Part shown: positions 1,835 through 39,934 of the stretch, in pieces | How the letters are laid out: every line of letters begins with the position of its first letter | Position numbering within the stretch: the stretch's first letter is position 1 | NCBI RefSeq assembly: GCF_000956475.1 | Contig: NZ_JYJB01000010.1 | Location: 558,001 to 622,000, forward strand | DNA length: 64,000 nucleotides | DNA from: Microbacterium hydrocarbonoxydans | Lineage (GTDB): Bacteria > Actinomycetota > Actinomycetes > Actinomycetales > Microbacteriaceae | Direction of reading: 5' to 3' | Notes under the pieces: model-generated | What the model was told of the DNA's origin: nothing | Databases searched by the model: none | The model's input: the letters and a program-made list of their open reading frames with translations, nothing else | Program-made: the position numbers and the translations under genes

Positions 1835-3506
<1,672 letters not shown>

Positions 3507-37019: not shown

Positions 37020-37949
37020 TCAGAACAGCAGTGAGGTGAGCCGGGTGCGGGCGGCGGCGACACGTGAGTCCCCGGGGCCGACCAGTCCGAACAGCTCGAC
37101 GAGGCGCTCGCGCACGGGCGCTCGCTCGGCGGCGGGAAGCTGCGCGAACAGGTCGAGCAGACGTTCGAAGGCGTCGTCGACGTGTCCACCGGCGAGATCC
37201 AGATCGGCCACGTCGAACTGGGCCTGCACGTCGAGGGGGGACGCAGCGGCGGCCGCACGCGCGGTCTGGAGGTCGAGCGACTGCACACGGGCCAGCAGCC
37301 GGACCTGCCCGAGACCCGCGGCGGCCTCCTCATCACGCGGATTCTCGGCGAGTGCCTTCTCGTACGCGGCGATCGCCGCCGGATAGTCGCCGGCTTCGAT
37401 CGCGGCGTATGCCTCCGCGTGCAGAGGCGGAAGCTCGGGTTCTGCGGGTGTCTGCGAGGGCCCCTCATCGCCGTCGACGGCGAGAGTGCCCGTCACTCCG
37501 TTCTGCGCGGCGAGCTGCAGCAGCTTGTCGAACACCTCGCGCACCTGCGCCTCTGGCACGGCGCCGGTGAACATCGGGACCGGCTGCCCGGCGATCAGCG
37601 CCACGACCATCGGGATCGACTGCGCGCGGAAGCCCTGCGCGAGCTGCGGGTTCGCGTCGACGTCGACCTTGGCGAGCAGGACCCGCCCTCCGAGTTCGCG
37701 CGTGACCTTCTCGATGATCGGACTGAGCTGCTTGCACGGACCGCACCATTCTGCCCACAGGTCGACGACCACAGGCACGGTGCGAGAGACCTCGAGGATC
37801 TGGCCGAACGACTCGTCGGTCGCGTCGACCACGACATCGACCACACCGGGAGCAGGAGCGGCTGCTCCTTCGGCCGGCGCTGCCGGACGGTTGCGGAGCG
37901 TCGACAGGTCGACGGCTCCACGGAGGGCTGCGGGCGAGATCTGGCTCAT
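37020..37949 (-). CDS. Thioredoxin-domain protein with TPR region (YbbN/CnoX-like)
   Basis: 309-residue soluble protein. A thioredoxin fold (about residues 36-145) holds the active site WAEWCGPCKQL (CGPC, both Cys kept), followed by a helical tetratricopeptide-like C-terminal half (LHAEAYAAIEAGDYPAAIAAY and two more pairs). This matches the YbbN/CnoX chaperone-redoxin layout that protects proteins in oxidative stress. The first 35 residues are an Ala/Pro-rich leader without signal peptide features. It overlaps the upstream membrane-protein gene by 4 bp. Confidence 0.9.
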   Translation of the reverse strand: MSQISPAALRGAVDLSTLRNRPAAPAEGAAAPAPGVVDVVVDATDESFGQILEVSRTVPVVVDLWAEWCGPCKQLSPIIEKVTRELGGRVLLAKVDVDANPQLAQGFRAQSIPMVVALIAGQPVPMFTGAVPEAQVREVFDKLLQLAAQNGVTGTLAVDGDEGPSQTPAEPELPPLHAEAYAAIEAGDYPAAIAAYEKALAENPRDEEAAAGLGQVRLLARVQSLDLQTARAAAAASPLDVQAQFDVADLDLAGGHVDDAFERLLDLFAQLPAAERAPVRERLVELFGLVGPGDSRVAAARTRLTSLLF

Positions 37950-39877
37950 TTGATCACCTCGACGGAGAGAAGGTTCTGGCGGGCGGCGAGCAGATGGATC
38001 TGCTCGGTGGACCCCTGCGCCGGCACAGCGAAGAACAGCTGGAACTCGTACTTCGTGGTCACGCCCTTGGCGGACTCTGTGACGCCTGTGAGCGCCTTGG
38101 CCTCGGGGTTGTCGTTGAAACGGATCACGGCTTCGGCTGACGTCGGCGTCACGCTTTCTGCCTCGACGAGGGAGACGGCGACGATCGCGCCGCTGTCCAA
38201 CGTCGTCATCGAGACGGGAGCCGAGTCGGACGCCACGATGTCGAACGCCGTCTGCGAAGTCGAGGCCGCATTGTTGGCGGCCAGGTTGTCGATGATCGCC
38301 TGACGGCTGTCGCGGATCGACTTCGCATAGGCGAGCGCGACATCGTCGAAGGAGCCGTAGGAGGGACTCTGCTCGTTCGCATCGACGACGTCGGCGAACG
38401 CCTCGGCCAGCTTGCCAGGGGCGATGCTGAGGAACGCCGAATCAGCCGGGACGAGCGAAGTGCCGAGCCACGGAGCCACGACCTCGGGGACCTTCGTGTC
38501 CGCGAGCATCTCGGCGATGTCCGTGATCTTGTAGTTCGACCACGGGTCCTGCTGGGTCATGGTGAGGATGACCGGCGGCACGGTTTCGTCGCCGGTGCTC
38601 TTGGTCAGCAGCAGCACCGTCCGCGGCCATCGGTCGGTGGCCTCGGGAAGGACCACCTCGACGTCATCCGTGGGGATCGCCGCGGGGAGCGGAGACTCCG
38701 GAATCGCGGTTCGCAGAGCGTAGTCGGTCGTGCGTGCAGCAAGCGCGGCACCGTCGAGGCGCGTCTTCGCGAGCTCGATGTCCATCGCGGCGTCGGCCTT
38801 CTCGAGCGTGGCGGAGATCTGCTCGATGATGCGCTTGGCCTGAGCCTCGGTCACCGCCGGCGGCTTCTGATTCTCCGGAGCGATCACCGTGGGCGACGGA
38901 GTCGGCGTCGGTGATGACGAGCCCAGCTGCGGCCACGAATCGGCCGTGCATCCGGTCGCGAGCACCGCGGTCACCGCCAACGCGGGAAGCGCCACGACCC
39001 AGCGCCGGCGCGACGAGCGAGCCGCACGGCTCTCGCTCTTTCGCACCGGCGCGCTCTCCTCGCCATCGGAATCCGGTGCCGGAGACTCCTCGGGGGCCGT
39101 CTCTGCGCCCTGTTCGATCGCGGCGCGATCCGCTGCGGGCAGCTCCGCGAGGTCGATCGGCTCGGTGATGGGAAGAGGGCCGGGGCCCTTGCGGCGAGGA
39201 CCGCGTCCGCGCCGCTGGTGCCGGATGCCCAGGACATAGAGGATCAGGCCGACCAGGAGGACGATCACACCGCTCGTGACCAGCGGGCCCGTCCACGGCG
39301 TCGAGTTGTCGAGCGGCCAGGACACTCTGATGTCGGTCGGCGCATCCTTGGTGCCGTCGTAGGCGATCAGCATGCTCACGCCGTCGGGCAGCTGCATGTT
39401 GTCGGCGATGAGAGCATCCTTCTCCGAGAACGAGTCGAGCCACAGATCGGATCCGGCGGGATTGTGGCCGCTCGCCTGCTCGGCGTCGTCGGCGCCCGGG
39501 GTCTCCGTCGGTGCAGGGGTGGCCTCGCCACCACCGTCATCCGAGCCCTCATCCGAGGCCGACACGAGTTCGACGTCGAGCTTGCCGTTCTTCCCGAGGC
39601 TCACGTGGTTGTACTCGGAGTCGGCCAGCCACGCCTTCATATCGGCGGTGCGTCCGTAGGCGGCGAAGATCTCGCCGTCGCCGTTCACGAGCAGCTTCTG
39701 GGCCCCCGGGTGCTCACGCAGCACATCGCCGTCCAGAAGCACGAACGGGGCGGGCTCATCGACCTTTACAGACACCTGATCCGACGACGGCCCCAGGAAG
39801 ACGGTCCGCTGAGCGATGCCCGCACCGATCAGCACCGTGGCCAGCACGAAGGCCGCGACGGCCCAAACGAAACGCAC
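37946..39877 (-). CDS. Large membrane protein with internal lipobox, unknown function
   Basis: 643-residue protein of a type I recall in Microbacteriaceae but cannot name with confidence. First helix at about residues 4-26, an extracellular acidic Ser/Pro-rich region, second helix near 204-224, a basic then acidic cytoplasmic linker, third helix near 293-309 ending in a perfect lipobox LATGC (Cys about 310), then a Pro/Ser/Thr spacer and a 300-residue extracellular domain. I moved the start from ATG 39931 to GTG 39877 because GAGGAG lies 7 nt upstream of it. An internal GTG at 39046 also follows a GAGGAG. Overlaps the thioredoxin gene by 4 bp. Confidence 0.75.
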   Translation of the reverse strand: MRFVWAVAAFVLATVLIGAGIAQRTVFLGPSSDQVSVKVDEPAPFVLLDGDVLREHPGAQKLLVNGDGEIFAAYGRTADMKAWLADSEYNHVSLGKNGKLDVELVSASDEGSDDGGGEATPAPTETPGADDAEQASGHNPAGSDLWLDSFSEKDALIADNMQLPDGVSMLIAYDGTKDAPTDIRVSWPLDNSTPWTGPLVTSGVIVLLVGLILYVLGIRHQRRGRGPRRKGPGPLPITEPIDLAELPAADRAAIEQGAETAPEESPAPDSDGEESAPVRKSESRAARSSRRRWVVALPALAVTAVLATGCTADSWPQLGSSSPTPTPSPTVIAPENQKPPAVTEAQAKRIIEQISATLEKADAAMDIELAKTRLDGAALAARTTDYALRTAIPESPLPAAIPTDDVEVVLPEATDRWPRTVLLLTKSTGDETVPPVILTMTQQDPWSNYKITDIAEMLADTKVPEVVAPWLGTSLVPADSAFLSIAPGKLAEAFADVVDANEQSPSYGSFDDVALAYAKSIRDSRQAIIDNLAANNAASTSQTAFDIVASDSAPVSMTTLDSGAIVAVSLVEAESVTPTSAEAVIRFNDNPEAKALTGVTESAKGVTTKYEFQLFFAVPAQGSTEQIHLLAARQNLLSVEVIK

Positions 39878-39934
39878 GAAAAGTCTCCTCACGCACCCCG
39901 ACTCTGTGCCCGGGGCGCAAATACTCGACATTTC

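Follow-up and report, generated by a model that had tools for sequence, protein, structure and literature searches.

The stretch of DNA analysed here (the window, 64,000 nucleotides of contig NZ_JYJB01000010.1 from Microbacterium hydrocarbonoxydans) carries a gene that we propose encodes the precursor of two proteins joined in a single frame. The frame runs on the minus strand from a GTG at 39877 down to the stop codon at 37946-37948. A first-pass annotation of the window, made from the letters without database searches, had left the strand unstated; reading-frame analysis places the gene on the minus strand and gives 643 residues from GTG 39877. This GTG has its own ribosome-binding site, a 5-base match at a spacing of 7 nt, and the in-frame ATG at 39931 appears less likely as the start because several family members start, or have a preceding stop codon, near the position of 39877. 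The protein is composed of an N module with two transmembrane helices, a basic linker, a third and weaker hydrophobic helix, and a C module (Table 1). Cys310, the sole cysteine among the 643 residues, stands at the end of helix 3, which the first-pass annotation had described as ending in a perfect lipobox. The cysteine is there as claimed; the word "perfect" was loose, since the lipobox consensus is counted over positions -3 to +1 and the box proper reads A-T-G-C, with the leucine at -4.

Table 1. Features of the fused gene and its surroundings (coordinates on the forward strand of the window).
Feature	Coordinates	Strand	Basis or remark
Whole fused gene, proposed polyprotein precursor	37946..39877	minus	Uninterrupted frame, 643 residues plus stop; family homology over the entire length
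N module: helix 1 (residues 2-26) and helix 2 (residues 196-224) with a probably extracytoplasmic beta domain between them	39146..39877	minus	AlphaFold2 model, pLDDT 91.4; encoded separately in 13 further families of the order
Linker from helix 2 to helix 3, about 70 residues with basic stretches, probably cytoplasmic	38996..39145	minus	Charge counts
Helix 3 and c-region, putative core of an internal signal peptide, about residues 295-309 (helix itself about 294-306)	38951..38995	minus	Weaker than helices 1 and 2
Lipobox L-A-T-G-C	38948..38962	minus	Cys310 codon at 38948-38950; predicted signal peptidase II site directly before Cys
C module: predicted mature lipoprotein, residues 310-643 (334 residues)	37949..38950	minus	Two putative NTF2-like domains (weak fold matches); relative of NF053531
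Internal start proposed by the first-pass annotation: GTG 39046-39044, GAGGAG 39061-39056	39044..39061	minus	Judged a chance occurrence
Next gene, thioredoxin + TPR_20 (YbbN-like)	37020..37949	minus	ATG overlaps the stop of the fused gene (37946-37949)

The N part was modelled with AlphaFold2 over residues 1-244. Fold searches with the N module returned jelly-roll and two-helix matches only, at low coverage, and we therefore claim no function for it; in a PDB sequence search it matched 4a42 (E 0.006) and, solely over profile positions 168-209, 8qag (E 7.5e-05). The model of the C module (pLDDT 95.5) comprises two alpha/beta domains which, via the fold search, weakly resemble NTF2-like and VirB8-type domains, namely those of ARC6/PARC6 and of VirB8/DotI type: the first half aligns with PARC6 with a Z score of 7.5 and an rmsd of 2.7 over 112 aligned residues, and the second half with DotI with a Z score of 5.3 and an rmsd of 3.4 over 115, both of them weak fold matches. 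Foldseek gave no match to the C module at E <= 0.001, the PDB sequence search gave nothing under E 0.4, and Pfam, searched with the whole protein, yielded only DUF3040 at E 0.04, below the cut-off.

The mature part of the C module matches the NCBIfam model NF053531 (lipo_SCO2278) with an E value of 6.6e-13 and 48.2 bits, and the whole fused protein scores 45.5 bits, the curated cut-off being 210 bits; the same model was matched by 70 of the 91 sequences tested. By its sequence, the C module is a homolog of NF053531 and not an equivalog. Nine loci that do exceed the cut-off (family f37) had no N module within the 1.5 kb flank. No published account of the function of the SCO2278 family was found in open PubMed Central, and SCO2278 is named as a hypothetical protein in the passages of PMC5733086 that concern it.

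Counting the window's own genome, the protein was found in 18 of 20 relatives, in 119 of 120 genomes of the Microbacteriaceae, the family of the window (f1), and in 105 of 149 genomes of the order. Two other families of the order, f6 and f7, which may be Micrococcaceae and Brevibacteriaceae, and one family outside it, f38, are treated separately below. The f1 loci examined were 79 of the 80 fetched from the 119 matching genomes plus 9 from the close-relative set; outside f1, 60 loci were drawn from the 95 matching genomes of the order, and 69 of 71 loci represent f6 and 19 of 31 represent f7. Loci L010-L013 and L019-L022, from four genomes of the genus and incomplete at first, were left outside the 88, L014-L018 and L023-L025 were refetched as L106-L110, and seven loci from already-sampled genomes were dropped as duplicates. 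The f1 locus L103 (G051) was dropped as anomalous: its N and C modules lie in different frames and it has two copies of the start of the C module (nt 3487 and 3884), which probably reflects an assembly fault or a duplication.

The two modules adjoin, N first, in all 149 loci examined, every one of which had been picked for matching. They share one frame in f1, f6 and f7. Outside these families they are encoded by separate genes in 50 of 50 loci from 13 families of the order, where the C module is a lipoprotein with its own lipobox; the question raised by the first-pass annotation, whether some genomes have two separate genes, is thereby answered in the affirmative. Family f18 of the order (G148) also has two separate genes, and the same separate pair was seen outside the order in four loci from three families. 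The other weak matches comprised G432 (f27), with neither module, and three f35 loci in which part of a C module, but no N module, was recognised. A second set of named f1 loci, comprising the best 80 of 278, is fused throughout; for 7 of them the C-terminal 300 residues also occur in the first set. In f38, the fused query matched 20 of 22 genomes, and profiles place both modules in one frame in nine; the remaining f38 genomes were uncounted, the C profile falling below threshold or the contig ending. We considered a sequencing error or a chance read-through joining two genes and rejected both, because the fused frame recurs in different genomes across the 88 f1, 69 f6 and 19 f7 loci, the 80 named loci and the nine f38 genomes. 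Some 1.1 kb downstream of the gene, several f7 genomes (G018, G359 and G366) contain another, weaker match to the fused protein, perhaps a tandem paralog.

In a tree of 148 C modules, built by a method that infers no root, fused and split forms are separated by a single change with a support of 93. A single change thus placed would have joined the adjacent genes in f1, f6 and f7, and the separate-gene state is probably the older one because of its wide spread. In a second tree, of 93 C modules, f38 falls in a group of 13 rows with families of the class that have separate genes (support 94), and two changes are needed between fused and split. A second, independent fusion in f38 is therefore likely, and not proven, as a single clade of all fused rows, f38 included, was not rejected (p-AU 0.15). 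We set aside a single origin of all fusions on the count of two changes, though with that reservation.

Across these families the junction carries a putative processing motif. With duplicates removed, a cysteine stands at the end of helix 3 in 84/88 f1, 19/19 f7 and 0/69 f6 proteins and at the corresponding site of 50/50 split lipoproteins; it is also present in 9/9 f38 proteins. Four further genomes of the genus Microbacterium are fused and, as judged by eye, carry the lipobox in four of four cases. The commonest lipoboxes of the fused family are L-S-G-C, L-A-G-C and L-T-G-C. A script found no cysteine outside the junction in 89 of 98 fused proteins, and one of the nine exceptions, L074, turned out to be the lipobox cysteine itself. 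Given both its retention in f1 and this scarcity of cysteines elsewhere, the conservation of the lipobox exceeds chance. The roughly 15 residues before the helix 3 core bear a net positive charge in 88/88 f1, 19/19 f7 and 59/69 f6 proteins.

The proteins that lack the cysteine carry another motif in its place. A-x-A, the signal peptidase I rule, follows the core in 62/69 f6 and 4/4 f1 proteins of this kind, and a stricter motif, A-x-A with a helix breaker (Gly or Pro) at -4 to -6, in 55/69 and 4/4, respectively. The pattern was first noticed in 8 f6 and 4 f1 loci, after which 61 more f6 loci were fetched; these later rows have A-x-A in 56/61 and the stricter motif in 49/61. The best control was helix 1 of the same proteins, expected to cross the membrane in the same direction: the stricter motif follows it in 2/63 f6 and 0/86 f1 proteins. 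It occurs in 9.3% of the sequence windows taken from f6 C modules. Among the 80 named f1 loci, 72 have the cysteine (71 by script, L311 by eye), and inspection by eye showed A-x-A in each of the eight without it, namely one Agreia, four Subtercola, two Leifsonia and one Microbacteriaceae bacterium. The presence or absence of the cysteine, mapped on a tree of 164 distinct rows, needs four changes inside f1, plus the f6 state. The junction therefore reads, from the sequences, as having stayed a cleavable signal peptide after the fusion. Homologs without the cysteine had been named by the first-pass annotation as evidence that would speak against its proposal; taken literally, f6 supplies them, yet they strengthen the idea of cleavage, because the lost cysteine has been replaced by what looks like a signal peptidase I-type site.

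The hydrophobic strength of helix 3 is that of a signal peptide. Its median score in f1 is 26.6, versus 42.2 for helix 1, 41.9 for helix 2 and 21.3 for the separate lipoproteins, and it is weaker than helices 1 and 2 in f1, f6 and f7 alike; rows with the cysteine were cut at Cys, which lowered their scores and shortened their lengths. In f6 the difference in median length is small, 19 for helix 3 versus 21 for helix 2. On these scores helix 3 is closer to the signal peptides of the separate lipoproteins than to helices 1 and 2. The linker in front of it is basic and proline-rich in many fused f1 proteins (for example, RRSRGPRRK...PKMPK); several separate N proteins (L115, L124, L126, L129, L131, L144 and L145) have instead a long cytoplasmic tail with W-R-x-x-W-G near its end.

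We consider it quite likely that the gene product is one precursor cut into two proteins, by signal peptidase II in the window's species and, in f6, by signal peptidase I. Among the options of the first-pass annotation was that signal peptidase II cuts the long form; the conservation of the site among homologs gives this strong support, and the signal peptidase I-type sites of the Cys-less lineages extend it. The fuller account, which we regard as probable, is that of a polyprotein born by fusion, probably twice, retained in at least four actinobacterial families, and cut by the lipoprotein signal peptidase deep inside a polytopic protein; about five switches to signal peptidase I would then mean that selection keeps the cut and not the lipid. 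Helix 1 would insert with the start of the protein inside, leaving the beta domain outside, and helix 2 would return the chain, so that the linker remains cytoplasmic and helix 3 acts as an internal signal peptide exporting the C module. Lgt would lipidate Cys310 and LspA (signal peptidase II) would cut just before it, yielding equal amounts of an N-terminal membrane protein and a lipoprotein with two putative NTF2-like domains. In f6 and in about four f1 lineages the junction has turned into a signal peptidase I-type site, and the C module would be released without lipid; once freed, the f6 C module might remain bound to a partner or to the wall. Co-targeting and a fixed ratio are our guesses at the reason for staying fused. 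LspA and Lgt genes were found in five of five genomes searched, the window's own included. The latter also has a second, distant Lgt-like match at G000:C10:741196-741897. G026 (L043), an f1 genome with a Cys-less fused protein, gave four LspA and three Lgt matches, mostly on a second contig.

Several observations weigh against this account. The lipobox of the window has Ala at -3, where the family usually has Leu. Plain A-x-A is common in these Ala-rich proteins: it occurs in 23.4% of the f6 C-module windows, in 23/84 f1 proteins with the cysteine and in 23/50 split lipoproteins, and it follows helix 1 in 24/86 f1 and 10/63 f6 proteins. The stricter motif was defined after the first examples were known and is also present in Cys-keeping proteins (16/84 f1, 5/19 f7 and 12/50 split), so that it is enriched, and not unique, where the cysteine is lost. 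Seven of the 69 f6 proteins (L125, L143, L214, L215, L217, L230 and L239) have no canonical A-x-A. The rows are related and the counts are not independent tests, the independent switches of the site numbering about five. Lastly, a start codon preceded by a ribosome site occurs close to the junction in some fused genes, as in the close relative L002 (ATG with a 7-base match).

This last point bears on a reading in which the gene gives two translation products, as the first-pass annotation had proposed: a start at GTG 39877 would yield the long membrane protein, and one at GTG 39046 a lipoprotein. The signals it described are present: GTG 39046 is in frame, 9 nt after GAGGAG, and basic residues come next. 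We searched the 40 residues preceding the helix 3 core for an ATG, GTG or TTG that has a ribosome-site match and compared the counts with 200 synonymous-codon shuffles per set. Sites of at least 5 bases number 5/88 in f1, 7/69 in f6 and 4/19 in f7, which is the level of the shuffles (means of 3.8, 4.9 and 3.1), and they are found in 2 of the 80 named f1 loci; the separate lipoprotein genes have one in 39/50 at this threshold and in 49/50 at 4 bases or more. Mild excesses over the shuffles do exist for 4-base sites in f1 (29/88 versus 23.4, reached in 4% of shuffles) and for 6-base sites in f1 (3 versus 1.4, 14% of shuffles) and f6 (3/69 versus 1.1, 8.5%). In f38, no start codon with a ribosome site was seen over the same 40 residues even at 4 bases or more (0/9), and many fused genes lack any ATG, GTG or TTG in this stretch (16/88 f1, 19/69 f6, 8/19 f7 and 6/9 f38). 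The window gene itself has a further in-frame GTG at residue 305, inside helix 3, with a ribosome-site match as long as that of GTG 39046; 4-base matches accompany three additional in-frame start codons. On these counts GTG 39046 with its GAGGAG is judged a chance occurrence, an internal start as a conserved feature is rejected, and the two-product reading is very unlikely, although a few species might use both routes, given the 7-base match of L002.

Helix 3 might also be a permanent third span that is never cut, with the cysteine either unmodified or lipidated in mid-chain. Such a span would be oriented so as to bring the C module outside uncut, and the length of the f6 helix 3, nearly that of helix 2, speaks for it. 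A plain span, however, needs neither a lipobox nor A-x-A, yet nearly all rows keep one of the two, with A-x-A standing where the cysteine was lost, and the weakness of helix 3 relative to helices 1 and 2 argues in the same sense, bearing in mind that Cys rows were cut at Cys for this comparison. We regard this alternative as unlikely. A mixed fate, in which full-length and cut forms coexist and the cut is regulated, draws on the consideration that mid-chain cutting in a polytopic protein might be slow, and seems to us exceedingly improbable. Cleavage of one precursor into two proteins remains the preferred reading.

In 138 of the 139 loci examined, a gene similar to the thioredoxin + TPR gene of Table 1 follows on the same strand and ends no more than 1.8 kb downstream.

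If the account holds, LspA, which is usually regarded as acting on short N-terminal signal peptides, would act after two membrane spans, which would widen its substrate rule and offer natural test substrates. The series of split genes, lipobox-bearing fusions and fusions with a signal peptidase I site would constitute a natural experiment on how fusion can coexist with separation of the proteins, and would show how sites pass between signal peptidases. It also carries a warning for annotation, as signal-peptide searches limited to protein starts could miss such lipoproteins.

No paper on the fused gene was found in open PubMed Central, and, from the same literature, we know of no case of a lipoprotein-type site behind two membrane spans or of switching between both enzymes. 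Three known systems offer comparisons, and GlnX/GlnH (PMC9769921) was considered as a further analogue. One of the three is the SCO2278-family lipoprotein (NF053531), to which the C module is homologous and which is encoded by a separate gene in the 50 split loci, 49 of them with a start and ribosome site of at least 4 bases; in the present family, it follows a two-helix membrane protein in one frame and lacks an N-terminal signal peptide. As in bacterial lipoproteins processed by Lgt and LspA, the junction has a basic n-region, a short hydrophobic core and a lipobox with its cysteine; the signal peptide lies some 300 residues inside the frame, not at the N-terminus of the primary product, and no conserved internal start precedes it. 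Pheromone peptides are cut from lipoprotein signal peptides, and in both situations the two halves of a signal-peptidase cut could be useful; in the present case, what lies upstream of the cut is an entire membrane protein, which is predicted to contain a folded domain and has its own gene elsewhere. A likeness in design is offered by FbcH, a cytochrome b fused to cytochrome c1 and cut by signal peptidase. Both are single genes with a polytopic N part, an internal signal peptide and two expected mature proteins, and the present family likewise joins in one frame two proteins that relatives encode separately, with a conserved internal site at which cleavage is predicted. The proteins are unrelated, and the likely ancestral site is here of the lipoprotein (signal peptidase II) type, with lineages switching to the signal peptidase I type. 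FbcH is a precedent for a fused membrane precursor that is cut by signal peptidase, and the lipoprotein-type site together with the switching between enzymes would be the new part.

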